A DNA stretch of 37,918 nucleotides from Rhodospirillales bacterium (GTDB lineage Bacteria; Pseudomonadota; Alphaproteobacteria; SMXQ01), in the NCBI GenBank assembly GCA_018666775.1, contig JABIXC010000011.1, positions 76,881 to 114,798 on the forward strand, given 5' to 3'. Within the stretch, counting starts at the first letter, position 1. Each line of letters opens with the position of its first letter. The notes beneath the pieces are model-generated. The model was not told the origin of the DNA and made no database searches. It saw only the letters and a list, made by a program, of their open reading frames with translations. The position numbers were made by a program, and so were the translations under genes. Shown here piece after piece: positions 3,193 through 36,284 of this stretch.

Positions 3193-4464
3193 TTATTTGC
3201 AATCGATGCGCTTTGCCCGCTGGCCGGTGCCCGGGTAGTTGAAGGTGCACGTCATGCCCATCTTGATCTTTTTACGCTTGGTCTTCTTGCCACCAATAAA
3301 CACCTTGGTCCGTCTACCAGAAACGCTGGTCTTCACGGTCTTGCCGTTTGCAAGCTTCATATGCAGCTTGCGCCCGCCTTTAATGATCTTGGAGATCGTG
3401 CCCGTGTCCTTGACCATCTTGATCTTCGCTTTGATCCGCTTGCCCTTGTAGGACATGGATTCACGAGCGCGATCAACAATTGATTTTGGTGTCTTATAGG
3501 CCTTGGCAACAATCGTCTGGATTTCACCACCCGTAACTGGCGACACATCCATAGACTGCTTGTTCAGCTCCTTGATCAGCCGGGGGTCTTTGGCCACCGC
3601 CACAAAGGCTGTGCGGATCGTTTTCAGACGATCGGCAGGAACGCCCGGGCCCATCAGGAATGGACGACCCATAACCTGGGGTGCAAAGACCAATTCAAAG
3701 ATTTGACGGTCTTCGGCATTTTTAGCAAGCTCGGTCACCAATGGCACATTGCCAATTTCAGGCAATTTCTTCAAAGACAGCTGGATCAGGATATTGACCT
3801 TCTTACCCTTGATCCATTCGCTCTTTTGATTTTTGAACGATGTCCACGACCAACCACAACGCCCGTAAACTTCCTTGCGTTCCATGGCGAGGTTAATACC
3901 AACCCCGGTATAGCCGGTGATGATCTTGAATTTGGTCCCAAGGATGTTGTTAAGTGCTGAGGGAAAATTTTCCGTGTCGTTGGCACCGGCACCGCCGATG
4001 ATCAATTCCTTTTTCATCACGTCCTGGATGGTCTTGATGCCGGTGGTATGCCAGGCAACACAGACGGAAACTTCATTGTTGATCGAGCCAACATAATTAA
4101 ATTTCTGGGGATCGTATTTCGGGCCACGCTTGCCATAGAGCGGCAAGAATGGAATGGCGCGCTGCACCGCACCAATAACGGTGCCATCCTGTGGTGCCAC
4201 ATTATAGACGAAATTGGCAGCGCGAATGCTGGCAGCACCCTGCATGAATTGCGTAATGATGCGGGGTTTGCCGGGGATATATTCACTGATATAGCGACCA
4301 ACTGTCCGGGCATAGGTACCATACCCACCGCCGGAACTGGCCCCGACGATGATCTTGACGGTTTTACCCTTGTAGAAAGATTTCCCCGAAGCAGCCGAAG
4401 CAGGCGACGACAGTGCAAAAGCCGCTGCAATCGCCATAGATGTATAAGCAATCTGTTTAAACAT
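3193..4464 (-). CDS. TctC/Bug-type solute-binding protein with extra C-terminal domain (copy 1)
   Basis: This 423-aa secreted protein has a clear signal peptide (cleavage near ASA-ASG, about residue 25). A TTT-family periplasmic binding fold follows: GKTVKIIVGASSGGGYGTYAR, then IPGKPRIITQFM, then YNVAPQDGTVIGAV. The usual family length is about 320-330 residues. Here residues 354-423 form an added Lys/Arg-rich domain ending in KRKKIKMGMTCTF and a terminal Cys. The same tail is present in the proteins at 10686 and 34998. The start is supported by an AGGGAGAAG site. No TctA/TctB permease is adjacent, so it is an orphan binding protein. The ligand is unknown, probably a carboxylate by family. 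Confidence 0.88.
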   Translation of the reverse strand: MFKQIAYTSMAIAAAFALSSPASAASGKSFYKGKTVKIIVGASSGGGYGTYARTVGRYISEYIPGKPRIITQFMQGAASIRAANFVYNVAPQDGTVIGAVQRAIPFLPLYGKRGPKYDPQKFNYVGSINNEVSVCVAWHTTGIKTIQDVMKKELIIGGAGANDTENFPSALNNILGTKFKIITGYTGVGINLAMERKEVYGRCGWSWTSFKNQKSEWIKGKKVNILIQLSLKKLPEIGNVPLVTELAKNAEDRQIFELVFAPQVMGRPFLMGPGVPADRLKTIRTAFVAVAKDPRLIKELNKQSMDVSPVTGGEIQTIVAKAYKTPKSIVDRARESMSYKGKRIKAKIKMVKDTGTISKIIKGGRKLHMKLANGKTVKTSVSGRRTKVFIGGKKTKRKKIKMGMTCTFNYPGTGQRAKRIDCK

Positions 4465-10685: not shown

Positions 10686-11915
10686 ATGAAATCAGCAACC
10701 ACATTAGCCTTAATGTGCGGCGTTGCCTTAACCCTTGGGGCGGGCGCAAATGCCAATGCCGCCGATGATGCCCGGGCCTATTACAAGGGCAAGACGATTA
10801 CCTATATCGTTTCCACCGGAACCGGTGGCGGTGCTGATTTCTATGGCCGGTTGGCAACCCGGCATATGAAACGCTATCTGCCCGGAACCAAGTTCGTCGT
10901 CCGCAATGTTCCCGGTGCCGGGCACATTATCGGTGCCAACAAAATCTATGCGTCAAAGCCCAATGGGCTGACCGTTGGGTCCTTTACCACAGGGCTGGTC
11001 TATACCCAGTTGGTCGGGCGCAAAACGGCAAGATTTGACCTCACCAAAATGACATGGATCGGCAAGGGTGCAACCGACATCCGCGTGCTCTATATGAGCG
11101 GCGCATCGGGCATCAAGACCTTTGATCAATTGTTAAAGGTTGGCCGCACCATCAAGTTTGGCGCTTCAGGCCTTGGCGCCTCCAGCTACAACGAGGGCTA
11201 CATGATTTCCCACGCCTGGAACATCCCCATCCGGATGATTCTTGGCTATTCCGGTGCGGAACGGGTCATGGGCATGTTGCGCGGTGAAATCGAAGGCCAG
11301 CCCGGGGGATTGAGTTCCATGACGGAACTGACCAGCGCCGATCCCGGTGTGATTGTCCTGCAATTTGGCAAGGTTGTACCGGGGGTTCCCGATGCCAACG
11401 ATATTGCCAAAACCCCCATCGCCAAAGCGGTGGCACGTTTTATGTCGGCCCAATCAAAGCTTTCGCGTTTTCTTGCCGGACCACCAAATATGCATTCAGG
11501 CCGCACTGCCGTATTACGGGCGACCTATAAACAGGCTTTTGAAAGCAAGCAATTGCGGGCCGAAGCCAAAAAGGCGCACCGGCCCATCTTTCCGCTTTAT
11601 GGCGATGATGTGACCAAATTGGTGCAGGTGACCATGGACCAGCCCCCGGAATTGATCGCTCTTTTGAAAAAGATCACCAACATCAAGGTGGCCATGCTCA
11701 AAAGCACGACCAAAATAAAGGCGGTAAAACGCAAAGGTCGGCGTTTGGTGGTGACCGAAAAGGGCAAGGATTATAAGGTCAAAATCTCACGCTCACGCAC
11801 CACTGTGATCATCAATGGCAAGACAACAAAGCGCAAAAACCTGAAGGCTGGCATGAAGTGCACCATCACCTGGCCCAAGGTGAATGGTGAGGCCAAAGAG
11901 GTGAACTGCCGCTAG
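10686..11915 (+). CDS. TctC/Bug-type solute-binding protein with extra C-terminal domain (copy 2)
   Basis: This 409-aa protein has a signal peptide (cleavage near ANA-ADD, about residue 26). A TTT-like binding fold follows: YYKGKTITYIVSTGTGGGAD, LPGTKFVVRNVPGAG, then IYASKPNGLTVGSF. Residues 341-409 form the extra Lys/Arg-rich tail, with VIINGKTTKRKNLKAGMKCT and a terminal NCR. The tail matches those at 3193 and 34998. It starts after a GGGAG site. No permease genes are adjacent. By position it may work with the upstream VOC protein. Its ligand is unknown. Confidence 0.87.
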   Translation: MKSATTLALMCGVALTLGAGANANAADDARAYYKGKTITYIVSTGTGGGADFYGRLATRHMKRYLPGTKFVVRNVPGAGHIIGANKIYASKPNGLTVGSFTTGLVYTQLVGRKTARFDLTKMTWIGKGATDIRVLYMSGASGIKTFDQLLKVGRTIKFGASGLGASSYNEGYMISHAWNIPIRMILGYSGAERVMGMLRGEIEGQPGGLSSMTELTSADPGVIVLQFGKVVPGVPDANDIAKTPIAKAVARFMSAQSKLSRFLAGPPNMHSGRTAVLRATYKQAFESKQLRAEAKKAHRPIFPLYGDDVTKLVQVTMDQPPELIALLKKITNIKVAMLKSTTKIKAVKRKGRRLVVTEKGKDYKVKISRSRTTVIINGKTTKRKNLKAGMKCTITWPKVNGEAKEVNCR

Positions 11916-19430: not shown

Positions 19431-20450
19431 ATGAATGCCAATCAATATGGAATATCGGGGCATTTCACCAAATGGGCAGTCTTGGCTTTTATATTTTTTG
19501 TTGGCACAACTTTTTACGGACACCCTGCCAGGGCAGCGGGAAAGCCTGAAAAAGTGACTGTTGCCATGTCTCTGACCCCCCTTTCGGCCCCGGTGATCAT
19601 TGCAAAAAATCGGGGGTATTTTAAAAAGAATGGCCTTGATGTCACCATCAAGGATTTTGTCGGTGGGCACCGCACGATCAAGGCCATATTTCAGGGCAAG
19701 GCTGATATTGCCACATCGTCTGAGGCTGTGGTCATGTTTAACAGCTTCAAGCGCACCGATTTTGCAATCCTTTGCACCTTTGTCACCTCTGACAATGATG
19801 TGAAAATTATCGCGCGAAAAAATTCAGGCATTCGGACGGTGCAAGATTTAGTCGGCCACCGGGTCGGCACCATCACCGGGGCATCCGCCCAGTTCTTTCT
19901 TGATGAAACCCTTTTACTGGCAGGCATCGACAACGCCAAAGTCACTGTGGTCCACGTTAGTCCGGAAAAAATGGCGTCAGCACTGGCCAAAGGCGACATT
20001 GATGCCAGCGTTGTGTGGGAACCCCTGGCGTATCGGGCAAAACAAAAACTGGGAACCGCGGCCATAGAAGTGCCCCATAACAAAATATATACAGAAACGT
20101 TTAACGCGGTAATCCTGAGGGACTATGCAAAAAAGAACCCGGGGCTTTTAATAAAGTTTACCCGCGCCATGGTCCAGGCAACCCGGTTTATCCGGGACCA
20201 GCCCGAACAATCTCAACGCATTGTTGCTACACGAATCAAAAAGGATTTACCATTCATCAATGCTGTATGGCAGGATTTTAAATTCGGCATCGGCCTTCAT
20301 CAATGGCTTCTGACAACATTGGAAAAAGAAGCAAGGTGGGCCATGGGACGCCAACTGATTTTAGCGAAAAAAGCCCCAAACTACCTTAATTTTTTATACC
20401 TTGATGCCCTTAAACAGGTAAGCCCAAAGACGGTAACCGTTTTTTATTAA
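19431..20450 (+). CDS. Periplasmic NMT1/SsuA-like solute-binding protein
   Basis: This 339-aa secreted protein has a signal peptide cleaving near residue 35 (ARA-AGK). The fold is that of nitrate/sulfonate/taurine or thiamine-precursor binding proteins: VTVAMSLTPLSAPVIIAKNRGYFKKNGLDV, then IFQGKADIATSS, LVGHRVGTITGASAQFFLDETLL and GDIDASVVWEP. Its ATG directly follows the TAA of the upstream kinase with no intervening base, so expression is coupled. No ABC permease or ATPase is nearby. A role as the ligand-sensing partner of the flanking kinases is inferred. The ligand is unknown. Confidence 0.88.
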   Translation: MNANQYGISGHFTKWAVLAFIFFVGTTFYGHPARAAGKPEKVTVAMSLTPLSAPVIIAKNRGYFKKNGLDVTIKDFVGGHRTIKAIFQGKADIATSSEAVVMFNSFKRTDFAILCTFVTSDNDVKIIARKNSGIRTVQDLVGHRVGTITGASAQFFLDETLLLAGIDNAKVTVVHVSPEKMASALAKGDIDASVVWEPLAYRAKQKLGTAAIEVPHNKIYTETFNAVILRDYAKKNPGLLIKFTRAMVQATRFIRDQPEQSQRIVATRIKKDLPFINAVWQDFKFGIGLHQWLLTTLEKEARWAMGRQLILAKKAPNYLNFLYLDALKQVSPKTVTVFY

Positions 20451-31484: not shown

Positions 31485-32732
31485 TTATTTCTGGAGATAC
31501 CGCGATACGGCCAGATAATGATAAATCAGCCGTTTGTCCGTCACATTATGAGCGCACATTTGATAGTTCATGGAACCATGGGCTCTGTATTTTGTGGCCT
31601 CACACCCATTCCGTTTAAAGCCTTTGGCCGCAGACCCCCCACCATATTCATCATCCAAGCCAAAGGCGTGGCCGACCTCGTGCCAATAGGTGTTATCGGT
31701 TGTCATGGTTGAGAAATTGTTGAACTGGACCGGGTTGGATTTATACATTTGATTAAATTTATATGGCAAAAACTTGGTGGCAAAGCGCACCGTTAGGTGA
31801 TCGTTTTTCTTAAAAAGCTTTAGAGCGGGTGAGCCTTTAAACTCACCTTCATTGTGCCCCTTCATCAACAATTTTAGCCTGAAAATTTCGTTCCCCAAAT
31901 CGTCAGAAATATTCCAATAAGCCTCTGCGGTTCGAACGAAATTATCAAGCACCCAAACCTTGGGCTTTACCTTCACAATCTGCTTCTTGATTGGATCCAA
32001 CCAAAAAAGATCCATATCCGACGACACGCGGCAACCCGACTTTGGGTTTCCCTTTTTGGTGTATTGATATTCAATTTTCCCTGAACTGATAAATTTATTC
32101 TGCGGATCCCGGGTATATAGCCCCTTGCCTGCATATTTCCCTTCAAACCCCGGGAAATAGATTGATGTTTTACACACCTTCAACCAAAGCGGTGTTGCGG
32201 GGGAATTGAGCGTGTAAACACCCGCCCCCCCCGGAACCGGGGTGACTTCAGATCTGGTATAAAGTTTCCATGCATGGGCTGCGTTAAAATCCACCCGGTT
32301 TTTAACAAAATCATTGATAATTGGCCGATATGGAACCACCATTTCCCAAACACCATCTTTTTTGCTGATGACATAAATATATTTTTGCTGGGTGAATGCC
32401 GTTCCAAGAAAATTATATTTTCCACGGATGACCTTGGCCTTAAGCGTGCGCGATTTCAGAATAGACTTGCCCGAATTACCGCCCCGGGCAGCCGTAAATT
32501 TCGACACCTGCCCCCCCTTGCGATCCCGGAACCGATTGCACTGCACAATGACTTCGTTCCAGGTGCGATTGCCGTAAAAAAAGGGATGGGGAAATAATTT
32601 TTGAAAAAAATTCACATCATTTTTGGTCTTTGTGGTCGACTTTAAATCCCGCATGCTTTTGCAAAGACCTGCATTCGCATCGTGGGGAAATATGACGCCA
32701 CACATCACAAAAAATAGAATGTAGTTTTTCAT
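31485..32732 (-). CDS. Secreted metzincin-like zinc metallopeptidase
   Basis: This 415-aa protein has a signal peptide (cleavage near ANA-GLC, about residue 21). Near the C-terminus it has H351-E-x-x-H355-x-x-G358-x-x-D361 (HEVGHAFGLDDEYGG), the metzincin HExxHxxGxxD/H motif with Asp as third ligand. A candidate Met-turn follows in HGSMNYQMC (M388). The roughly 330 preceding residues are beta-rich and basic with scattered cysteines, of unrecognised type. An AAGGAG site precedes the ATG. It lies within the region bounded by the direct repeats. The substrate could be a surface or environmental protein; this is inference. Confidence 0.75.
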   Translation of the reverse strand: MKNYILFFVMCGVIFPHDANAGLCKSMRDLKSTTKTKNDVNFFQKLFPHPFFYGNRTWNEVIVQCNRFRDRKGGQVSKFTAARGGNSGKSILKSRTLKAKVIRGKYNFLGTAFTQQKYIYVISKKDGVWEMVVPYRPIINDFVKNRVDFNAAHAWKLYTRSEVTPVPGGAGVYTLNSPATPLWLKVCKTSIYFPGFEGKYAGKGLYTRDPQNKFISSGKIEYQYTKKGNPKSGCRVSSDMDLFWLDPIKKQIVKVKPKVWVLDNFVRTAEAYWNISDDLGNEIFRLKLLMKGHNEGEFKGSPALKLFKKNDHLTVRFATKFLPYKFNQMYKSNPVQFNNFSTMTTDNTYWHEVGHAFGLDDEYGGGSAAKGFKRNGCEATKYRAHGSMNYQMCAHNVTDKRLIYHYLAVSRYLQK

Positions 32733-32913: not shown

Positions 32914-34890
32914 TCAAGAGAAGTAGGGAATCCCCAGCAGTTCGAACAGGGCGGGGGCTGACCAGAATATTTCCAACAAGAAATCAAAGATCACCACCAC
33001 GAAGGCTTCTGCAATCACCGCCAACAACAGCGCGATGCGCCATGTGCCGCCATAGATGCGAATATAGAGCAGCGCAAATACGGCCATGGCAATATGAAAT
33101 CCGATCAGAAACACGCTGGCGGCAAGACCGATAAGCCAAGCGAAATTCTCAAGGCTGCGGCGCATGGTTGTCGCCGCTTTCACACCATCAAAGGCAGGGA
33201 TATCTGAGCTCGGCCCGCCGAGGACACGCAGATGAAAACTGATCTGAAGCGCGCCCAACAGAATACCAACCCCCGCAATACAATAGATTATGAGAGATGC
33301 GCGGGTTACCCATTCCGTGCTGATAGTGGCAGCGGCGGCCAACACCCCCATAACCACTAGCAAAAAGACGATATCGCCCCGTAGATGCCAACGGGTCAAA
33401 TCGATCAATGGCTCGCCACCTGCGGGTTCGCCTTTGCGCATCCTCCGGATGATGGGCATCACCAAAGTCAAGACAACAAGGCAGAAGATGATCAAAACGC
33501 CCGGCTCAAGAATCCATTCCCAGCCATAGCGCGCATTAGAAAGCCACAAATAGCCTTCTAACTGTCCGCCCAAAACAACGGCCACCAGCAAGGGAGGACG
33601 CGGCCAATCAAATATCTTCATAAGATAGCCAAGGGCAGAGAATCCTAAAAAGGTAACAATATCCCACCACACAAAATGGGCAGCATAGGCCGCCGTCACA
33701 CAAAGGACCAAGGTCATTGGCACAATAATGTAGAACGGCATCAAGCTCAGCTTGGCAAACTGGTTCGCAGCACCAAGGGCCAGCGCGGCCGCGATGATAT
33801 TAGCAATCACCAAAACCCAGATCATGGCCATGGTGTACGGCAATTGATCTGTCAGCATGGCGGAACCCGGCGTGATACCGACCGAAATAAAGGCGACAAG
33901 CATCAACGCATAAGACGTTGAGCCCGGAATTCCGAAGGCAATGGTTGGGATTAATGCACCACCTTCTTTGGCATTATTAGAGCTTTCCGGCGCGATCACA
34001 CCGCGCACGTCACCCTTGCCAAAATTTTCCGGGTTTTTCTCGGTCTGCACCGCATGGGCATAAGCAAACCAATCGGCGACAGATCCACCGAGGCCCGGCA
34101 ACACACCAACCCAAACGCCAATTAGGGAACAACGGATCATCAGCCACCAATGGATAAACACATCCTTCATGCCTTGGACCAGACCAGACCCCAGCCCTTC
34201 GGTTTCGGCAATTGATGTGCGCCGCACCGCTAACGCGATCATTTCTGGCACGGCAAAAAGCCCAAGGCCCACGAGAATGAGGCTAATGCCATCAACGAGG
34301 TATTCACCTTCAAAGGCAAAGCGTTCAATGCCCGTTTTATTATCCATGCCAACGGTTGAGACCAGTACGCCAAGAATAGCCGCCATTAATCCCTTGATTG
34401 GCGCGCGGCCTGACAGCACACCGACGGCCGACAAGCCCCAAAGAACCAACATCAAAAATTCCGGCGAACGGAAGGCCAAAACCAATGGCCGCAGGATCGG
34501 CAGGCTGGCAAAAAGAACAATGGCGCCGAATATGCCACCCAAAGGTGACGCGATGAAGGCCGCCCCAAAGGCGCGTCTGGCTTCGCCCTTTTGCGCCATT
34601 GGGAAACCATCAACGATGGTCGCCTGAGAGCCCGCACTGCCCGGCACCGCGATCAACACAGACGGAAAAGTATTCGCCGTGTTCGAAACCGCCCCCATGC
34701 CCAGTAAAAGGGCGATGGCCGGATAAGGATCAAGGGTGATGGCATAGGGCAAAACAATAGTGATGAGGAGAAGCACCCCAATACCCGGAAGGGCCGCAAA
34801 GAACGAGCTGCCCAAAATGCCAATGAGCATGAGAAACATAGGCCAGGGACGTGAAATTTCACTAACGGCTATAAATAAAGCATCAAACAT
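32914..34890 (-). CDS. Tripartite tricarboxylate transporter permease, TctA-TctB fusion
   Basis: This 658-aa membrane protein has a TctA part of about 500 residues: LPGIGVLLLITIVLP, GMGAVSNTANTFPSVLIAVPGSAGSQAT, and the second repeat GVLPGLGGSVADWFAYA with GALIPTIAFGIPGSTSYALML. After RRMRKGEPAGGEP a roughly 150-residue tail with four predicted helices resembles TctB (DUF1468), normally a separate small subunit. It would energise uptake of a carboxylate delivered by the binding protein encoded upstream at 34998. The start has only a weak ribosome-binding site. The gene follows a long palindrome. Confidence 0.88.
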   Translation of the reverse strand: MFDALFIAVSEISRPWPMFLMLIGILGSSFFAALPGIGVLLLITIVLPYAITLDPYPAIALLLGMGAVSNTANTFPSVLIAVPGSAGSQATIVDGFPMAQKGEARRAFGAAFIASPLGGIFGAIVLFASLPILRPLVLAFRSPEFLMLVLWGLSAVGVLSGRAPIKGLMAAILGVLVSTVGMDNKTGIERFAFEGEYLVDGISLILVGLGLFAVPEMIALAVRRTSIAETEGLGSGLVQGMKDVFIHWWLMIRCSLIGVWVGVLPGLGGSVADWFAYAHAVQTEKNPENFGKGDVRGVIAPESSNNAKEGGALIPTIAFGIPGSTSYALMLVAFISVGITPGSAMLTDQLPYTMAMIWVLVIANIIAAALALGAANQFAKLSLMPFYIIVPMTLVLCVTAAYAAHFVWWDIVTFLGFSALGYLMKIFDWPRPPLLVAVVLGGQLEGYLWLSNARYGWEWILEPGVLIIFCLVVLTLVMPIIRRMRKGEPAGGEPLIDLTRWHLRGDIVFLLVVMGVLAAAATISTEWVTRASLIIYCIAGVGILLGALQISFHLRVLGGPSSDIPAFDGVKAATTMRRSLENFAWLIGLAASVFLIGFHIAMAVFALLYIRIYGGTWRIALLLAVIAEAFVVVIFDFLLEIFWSAPALFELLGIPYFS

Positions 34891-34997: not shown

Positions 34998-36284
34998 TTA
35001 TTTACAGTCAATCTTCATGGCCTTTTTCAAGCCTTTCGTTTTAAAGGTGCACTTCATGCCAACCTTTAAAGCCTTCCGTTTGGCTTTGCTTCCGCCAACA
35101 GAGATTTTGGTCTTTTTACCAACTTTAAGTTTTCCCTTGTTTCCAGAACCCTTCCAATAAACCTGCTTGCCACCTTTTTTGATCTTAGAAATTTTACCCT
35201 TGCGGAGATAAATTTTATTTCTAAAGGCAGCGAGGCCATATTTCACTTTAAGGGCATCGGCATAATCCAATGCCGATTCAGGTGCGCTGTGGATGACATT
35301 CACCATCGCCGCAACTTCTTCGCCCGGAATATAGAAAAGTTCCTTGCTGAACTGTTTGCGGGCAACTTTAAGGAATCCCGGATCGTTGACTGACGCTTTA
35401 TAAGCCGCACGATAGAGTTTGACATATGCCTTAGGCGTGCTCGGTGCCATGGCCATCCATTTATCAACCCCTGATGAGCCCGTCATAGACTGATAACCCT
35501 GCCAGGCTTCTTTTGAAATGCCCTTTTTCTTCAGGTTTTCCGTCATTGTCGCGATATTCATATAGCTGGGGCGCCTGACAAGCTTGCCCCCCATCTGTTG
35601 CCCATCCTGTGTCAAAAGCTCCGTCACACCATCTTTTAAAAGGGTGTCGATCAGGTAGGCATTATTGGTAGCAAAGGCATCGATCTCGCCTTGGCGAATG
35701 GCTTTGTTCATTTGTCCTGAACCACGGTACCCAGGAATCCAGCGCAGGTTCCAGCCAAGGAATTCGGCGCCCCACATGGGCATCGCTTGCCAAGACCGCG
35801 TGCCACTGATGGCCGCCACAATGACCGGTTTAGCAGATTTATCCATCAACCGCTTTTTTGCATCTTTGCGGAGGAACAAGACGGAGCCCCCACGATTGAC
35901 AGAGCCTAAGAAATTAAACTTCTGAGGATCATAACGGGCCGATTTACGCCGCAAGGTGCTGGGCTGAAGGACGGTGTTATCCGATTGCATAAAGGTCAAC
36001 CCATCGCCCTTGACCTTGTTCATCAAGTAATTGGCAGCACGGATTTTACCGCCGCCGGTGCCCATATTCTTGACGACAATGGTGGGATTGCCGGGCAGAT
36101 ACTTTTTCATATACTGAGATATCAGCCGGCCAATGCGGTCTGTGCCGCCGCCGGCACCAGAAGCAACAATCAATTGAACGCGTTTGCCCTTTAAAGATAT
36201 ATCTGCCGAAGCAGGGGATGCAGCCAATGCCACGGCAACCGTTGCCGTTGCAAATAGTGTACGCAATGAAGTTGAATTTACCAT
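34998..36284 (-). CDS. TctC/Bug-type solute-binding protein with extra C-terminal domain (copy 3)
   Basis: This 428-aa protein has a signal peptide (cleavage near ASA-DIS, about residue 27). The TTT-like fold shows GKRVQLIVASGAGGGTDRIG, LPGNPTIVVKNMGTGGG and LMNKVKGDGLTFMQS. Residues 362-428 are the added Lys-rich domain, with ISVGGSKAKRKALKVGMKCT and terminal IDCK, shared with the proteins at 3193 and 10686. An AGGGAGG site precedes the start. It is the only one of the three with a permease (TctA-TctB) just downstream, so it is likely the binding component of that system. Confidence 0.88.
   Translation of the reverse strand: MVNSTSLRTLFATATVAVALAASPASADISLKGKRVQLIVASGAGGGTDRIGRLISQYMKKYLPGNPTIVVKNMGTGGGKIRAANYLMNKVKGDGLTFMQSDNTVLQPSTLRRKSARYDPQKFNFLGSVNRGGSVLFLRKDAKKRLMDKSAKPVIVAAISGTRSWQAMPMWGAEFLGWNLRWIPGYRGSGQMNKAIRQGEIDAFATNNAYLIDTLLKDGVTELLTQDGQQMGGKLVRRPSYMNIATMTENLKKKGISKEAWQGYQSMTGSSGVDKWMAMAPSTPKAYVKLYRAAYKASVNDPGFLKVARKQFSKELFYIPGEEVAAMVNVIHSAPESALDYADALKVKYGLAAFRNKIYLRKGKISKIKKGGKQVYWKGSGNKGKLKVGKKTKISVGGSKAKRKALKVGMKCTFKTKGLKKAMKIDCK

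Follow-up and report, generated by a model that had tools for sequence, protein, structure and literature searches.

A predicted C-terminal OB-fold domain on solute-binding proteins of different transporter classes, and its alternation with poly-lysine endings, in a Rhodospirillales bacterium

Why should three solute-binding proteins (SBPs), encoded apart from one another and more divergent in their binding cores than at their ends, finish in the same lysine-rich tail with two cysteines? The question is raised by a window of 37,918 nucleotides from a Rhodospirillales bacterium, i.e., the whole stretch of DNA analysed here, in which a sequence-only reading had aligned such tails on three TctC-like proteins and had suggested that they may be a docking or anchoring device. 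We examined whether the tail is a domain of its own, how far it extends through the genome and its relatives, and which role would best account for it.

Three tailed binding proteins and the predicted fold of the tail

The three open frames and their tails are present at the positions reported earlier. The first encodes a TctC-like protein of 423 aa (3193..4464, minus strand) with its tail at 3196..3429, as bounded by the HMM and by a model of this copy folded alone; the second, of 409 aa (10686..11915, plus strand), has its tail at 11682..11912 by HMM boundaries; and in the third, of 428 aa (34998..36284, minus strand), HMM boundaries and the AlphaFold2 model place the domain at residues 354-428 (35001..35225), with cysteines at 412 and 427 and a linker at about residues 348-357. 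The stretches aligned in the sequence-only reading are upheld by these boundaries, but each domain is slightly longer than had been stated. The N-termini of all three, judged by eye, show a hydrophobic segment and a cleavage-like site of small residues. The PF03401 profile scores the 10686-11915 protein at 25.0 bits against a Pfam cut-off of 27 and does not match the other two, and a homologous relative (L213) passes the cut-off with 37.3 bits.

The carriers had also been described as unlinked, which holds for 3193-4464 and 10686-11915 (TctA absent within 6 kb of either) but not for 34998-36284. Directly downstream of the latter, on the same minus strand, lies the gene of a 658-aa TctA permease (32914..34890; Pfam PF01970, E 3e-115), the TctA match being separated from the open frame by 165 bp. 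Adjoining the TctA gene in turn is a frame (31485-32732, minus strand) for a basic, secreted-looking protein of 415 aa (pI 9.8, 11% Lys, net +35) with no Pfam match. Another basic secreted-looking protein, of 339 aa (19431-20450, plus strand; pI 9.9), is flanked by two large open frames of about 890 aa.

The homology of the three tails is well founded: when they are withheld from training, the HMM still recovers them, with scores of 59.9, 82.1 and 82.3 bits (E 6e-17 to 6e-24). Shuffled sequences of the same residues (n=3000) reach at most 8.6 bits, so that the similarity is not an effect of lysine content. Compared pairwise by BLASTP, the window tails are 48, 37 and 40% identical (E 6e-8 to 1e-16). 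As had been noticed from the three copies, the cores diverge more than the tails, with a mean pairwise identity of 0.31 vs 0.43 over 595 pairs of TctC-type carriers from this genome.

AlphaFold2 modelled the mature 34998-36284 protein, using 78 homologs, at a mean pLDDT of 93.8; in the linker between core and tail (residues 321-330), confidence falls to 72. The modelled core has the two-lobed TctC/Bug fold: the top 11 PDB entries are all of TctC type (Z 20.8-25.3) and the next group falls to 12.7. Solved TctC structures align up to about residue 318-328 of the 401 in the model and so stop about 75-83 residues short, in line with the earlier remark that normal TctC proteins end sooner. The core match stops before the tail and leaves it uncovered, so that the tail does not belong to the ordinary TctC fold. 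Modelled by itself, the 3196-3429 copy gave a pLDDT of 88.6 and an OB fold, its DSSP order being that of a barrel of five strands in which a short helix precedes the fourth main one. Almost all PDB matches of the tail are OB proteins (CusF, PriB, SSB, IF-1 and the anticodon domains of LysRS/AsnRS). CusF is the closest, with a Foldseek E of 6e-4 and a VIA Z of 9.2 (65 residues at rmsd 2.0), and PriB, SSBs and others follow closely; a Z of 9 for a predicted barrel of this size shows fold class, not ancestry.

The expectation that the tail is not a described family was borne out, as Pfam and NCBIfam gave nothing convincing and no curated family passed its cut-off. Membership of DUF5666, to which the tail had been likened, was dropped because this family is not among the 15 Pfam families that 20 tails of the genome match with E values of up to 5. 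The profile matches to B3, IF-1, tRNA_anti-codon, Sac7d and others are weak and scattered, and most fall short of significance; several of the families concerned are OB or small-barrel ones, and we took the matches solely as hints of fold.

In an alignment of 87 tails, one glycine and two cysteines are invariant (G58, C61 and C77 in the numbering of the first row), the cysteine pair being kept in 87/87 just as in the window, and T41, G47, R52, K56 and M59 are each conserved in at least 90%. The invariant features are the fold, the Gly-x-x-Cys and the second Cys; charge is not among them. The two cysteines sit on the model's two final strands, which are adjacent, 20 of the 35 TctC-type carriers have no mature cysteine besides this pair, and the genome encodes DsbB, which together make it likely that a disulfide closes the last beta-hairpin. 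The nearest solved fold and the invariant cysteines would also suit a CusF-like metal-binding module or a redox-active cysteine pair, and metal binding had indeed been suggested earlier. However, the CusF site consists of W-x-x-M-x-M plus His (PMC10656224), and W-x-x-M-x-M occurs in 0 of 87 tails; the CXXC motif is absent from the tail, hhalign against E. coli CusF returns a probability of 0.3%, and the CusF_Ec profile (PF11604) matches two of the 87 at E 0.012 or worse. On account of the missing site we rejected CusF-like metal binding, and to a metal or redox module in general we give hardly any credence.

The domain across the genome and its relatives

The tail is not limited to three copies. 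Our HMM finds 43 in the 2.41 Mb genome, each of about 75 residues and all at the extreme C-terminus of their open frames (counts for the whole genome come from HMM searches and retrieved sequence stretches). These are distributed over 41 proteins: 35 TctC-like SBPs, 5 ABC-type SBPs (SBP_bac_1/6/8, each exceeding its Pfam cut-off) and one stand-alone protein of 101 residues, made up of a signal-like sequence and the OB domain. The sequence-only reading had asked whether the tail occurs on other secreted proteins, and the ABC-type and stand-alone carriers answer that it does. Two neighbouring TctC-like proteins bear two tandem copies each; their genes (locus L085; G000:C17 611069-614180) are adjacent, near-identical and located beside TctA. 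Around the stand-alone gene, the sequence of genes is tctA, tctB-like (assigned by position and size only), stand-alone OB, tctC-OB. At this operon-like locus (L080, 2683-6749) the TctB-like product is a small membrane protein, the stand-alone protein has four cysteines, and two genes resembling ornithine cyclodeaminase by eye follow the TctC-OB gene. In two further genomes of another genus, the stand-alone form also adjoins a tailed TctC. The domain is almost certainly a C-terminal OB module that has moved between SBP classes.

One candidate carrier, an O-antigen ligase with a Wzy_C match (L113, 1360-3237), was discarded as a probable assembly chimera, because in its open frame the ligase gives way directly to the interior of a TctC core; the N-terminus of the L132 protein looks chimeric as well.

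The module was found in all 11 searched genomes of the bacterial family, at 7 to 69 copies each, and was absent from 50 genomes taken from other families in that class. In a class sample of 385 genomes it turned up in two more families, with four genomes in one and a single genome in the other, and in a phylum sample of 398 genomes only the window genome had it. Its public relatives come from alphaproteobacterial MAGs, several of them apparently from marine surveys, and plasmids and viral contigs yielded zero relatives at the sensitivity used.

Charge, poly-lysine endings and candidate roles

Nine TctC-like SBPs of the genome that lack the OB domain end in Lys-rich runs, most with two cysteines just before, and four OB-less ABC-type SBPs end in polybasic runs; neither an OB domain nor a long basic run is found on two TctC-like proteins, one ABC-type SBP, DctP and one SBP_bac_5. 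At locus L198, an SBP_bac_5 protein shows RKRRKK after an apparent C-terminal transmembrane helix, perhaps a further means of membrane retention. Runs of at least seven consecutive Lys codons occur at six places in the genome, five being C-termini of TctC-like SBPs and the sixth a TolA/TonB-like linker. A tree built from the cores requires at least five changes between OB and poly-Lys endings, two of which are forced by well-supported branches alone. Among relatives, PhnD-like phosphonate-binding proteins also end in poly-Lys; Lys7-stop endings were not found in genomes G002 and G006. From sequences and models, we see in the predicted OB domain a module that has spread as a C-terminal unit and that alternates, in the window genome, with poly-Lys or polybasic tails.

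Conceivably, such a tail could be a neutral or stabilising C-terminal cap, its role limited to stability, that was spread by duplication of SBP genes. Paralog expansion does explain much of the copy number, and tail and core identities correlate (r 0.53); nevertheless, the transfer to a second SBP class, the stand-alone version, the tandem copies, the repeated exchange with poly-Lys and a tail more conserved than the core make this highly unlikely. The exchange of OB and poly-Lys points to a role for which C-terminal positive charge suffices.

Tails of the window genome carry a mean net charge of +21 per 78 residues, and per 100 aa the tail has 27.0 net charges vs 7.0 for the core, about fourfold more. 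Basic charge had been regarded as a distinctive mark of the tail, and it is usual but not defining: sampled tails of genus g3 (two genomes, G002 and G006) have net charges of only -1 to +4 with fold and cysteines kept, and charge thus cannot be the whole function everywhere. Near-neutral g3 tails were seen at loci L130, L131, L138, L140, L145 and L146. In addition, most of the secreted proteins checked have a basic pI of 9-10.4, and acidic values (about 5-6) prevail among the cytosolic ones (window 752-37627; L188, L199, L200), so part of the tail charge may follow a secretome-wide trend. The very high charge density could serve an electrostatic collector, in which the positive tail concentrates anionic ligands such as carboxylates and phosphonates around the binding cleft without any tethering, and both TctC-like and PhnD-like SBPs, expected anion binders, bear OB or poly-Lys tails in the family. 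Against this, DctP binds carboxylates likewise and is without a tail, the ionic strength of sea water screens small ions, and g3 tails are neutral, so that we hold a collector to be improbable.

The genome has 12 TctA genes vs at least 46 TctC-like SBPs; 8 of the 41 tailed proteins are encoded within 3 kb of TctA and for the other 33 TctA is absent within 6 kb. Orphan TctC/Bug sets far outnumbering permeases are a known puzzle (PMC5994714, PMC9602780), and in Bordetella and Rhodoplanes, too, each permease is reported to face many orphan SBPs (PMC5994714). That the tail serves for docking or anchoring remains plausible, as first proposed. The permease itself is unlikely to be the general dock: the OB tail is also found on ABC-type SBPs, which speaks against a dedicated dock for TctA or for any one permease type. 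A related proposal is that the domain recognises one particular protein partner, be it a shared scaffold, a permease subunit or the stand-alone OB protein, and brings SBPs to it independently of bulk charge. The retention of fold, Gly-x-x-Cys and second Cys even where charge is lost agrees with it, as do the stand-alone gene between tctB and a tailed tctC and the adjoining genes in the two further genomes, but the domain is carried by both TTT and ABC SBPs, which use different permeases, and a specific dock would not tolerate the unstructured poly-Lys substitutes on related SBPs. We consider partner docking rather unlikely, if the best of the competing explanations.

Dozens of secreted SBPs with one C-terminal device suggest that it retains or places them in the cell envelope. 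In type IX secretion, C-terminal domains act as sorting signals, and the OB domain might similarly send SBPs to the outer surface or into a dedicated secretion route; it is strictly C-terminal, common to unrelated N-terminal domains, restricted to a family and present in tens of copies. Yet its carriers are SBPs with ordinary signal-like N-termini, a tctA-linked one has to reach the inner membrane, and poly-Lys, its alternative, is not known as a sorting signal, all of which makes sorting distinctly unlikely.

The single account that we favour, tentatively, is a cationic tether holding SBPs near an anionic envelope surface. The OB domain would present a dense positive surface, the positive tail would hold the SBP reversibly on an anionic envelope polymer or membrane face, and the large stock of SBPs would thereby be kept near few permeases; a poly-Lys tail could do the same job as a cheap unstructured substitute. 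For the tether we count the strictly C-terminal copies, the two SBP classes with the stand-alone form, the separate OB fold, the charge density, the basic endings on OB-less SBPs, the changes on the tree, the TctA/TctC ratio and DsbB; against it stand the near-neutral g3 tails and the basic secretome. It is mainly because of the g3 tails, in which the domain may bind a partner through its fold or have taken on another role, that we do not rate the tether higher. In a wider form, disulfide-pinned OB domains and poly-Lys runs may be interchangeable, lineage-restricted retention modules, both docking SBPs, across transporter classes, to one common anionic surface of the envelope and keeping a large orphan SBP pool near few permeases in a free-living marine cell; this is possible but doubtful.

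OB folds and expanded TctC families are already known, and their combination is new. A C-terminal domain on TctC/Bug proteins is unmentioned in PMC5994714 and PMC9602780, and a literature search reaching few subscription journals found no relevant paper on SBPs with poly-Lys or OB tails. The OB tail adds a domain family, with tens of copies per genome, that is missing from Pfam and NCBIfam, in an abundant-looking, uncultured alphaproteobacterial lineage. A removable C-terminal module across SBP classes, together with a natural unstructured substitute, offers an experimental handle on SBP placement in the envelope and on permease sharing.

Likeness to known systems

The window carriers share their core fold with TctC/Bug proteins (PF03401; Bug27 2qpq, TphC 7ndr, 4x9t), which align over about 282 residues with Z values of up to 25.3, but the solved proteins end before the position of the tail. 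The poly-Lys C-termini of the same genome match the OB tail in position, carrier classes and strong positive charge, and differ from it by the absence of a folded domain. The periplasmic Cu(I)/Ag(I) chaperones CusF/SilF (PF11604) are likewise small five-stranded OB folds of similar length, whereas the OB tail has two invariant cysteines and is fused to SBPs, with the His/Trp/Met-x-Met metal site absent. DUF5666 and DUF3221/YobA have a beta pattern with ...LK-x-G-M/D... before the fourth main strand, as in the OB tail, and the YobA structure 4qy7 matches the tail at Z 7.7 (the DUF3221 profile at E 0.05 only); unlike in these families, the OB tail combines that pattern with a cysteine pair of its own.
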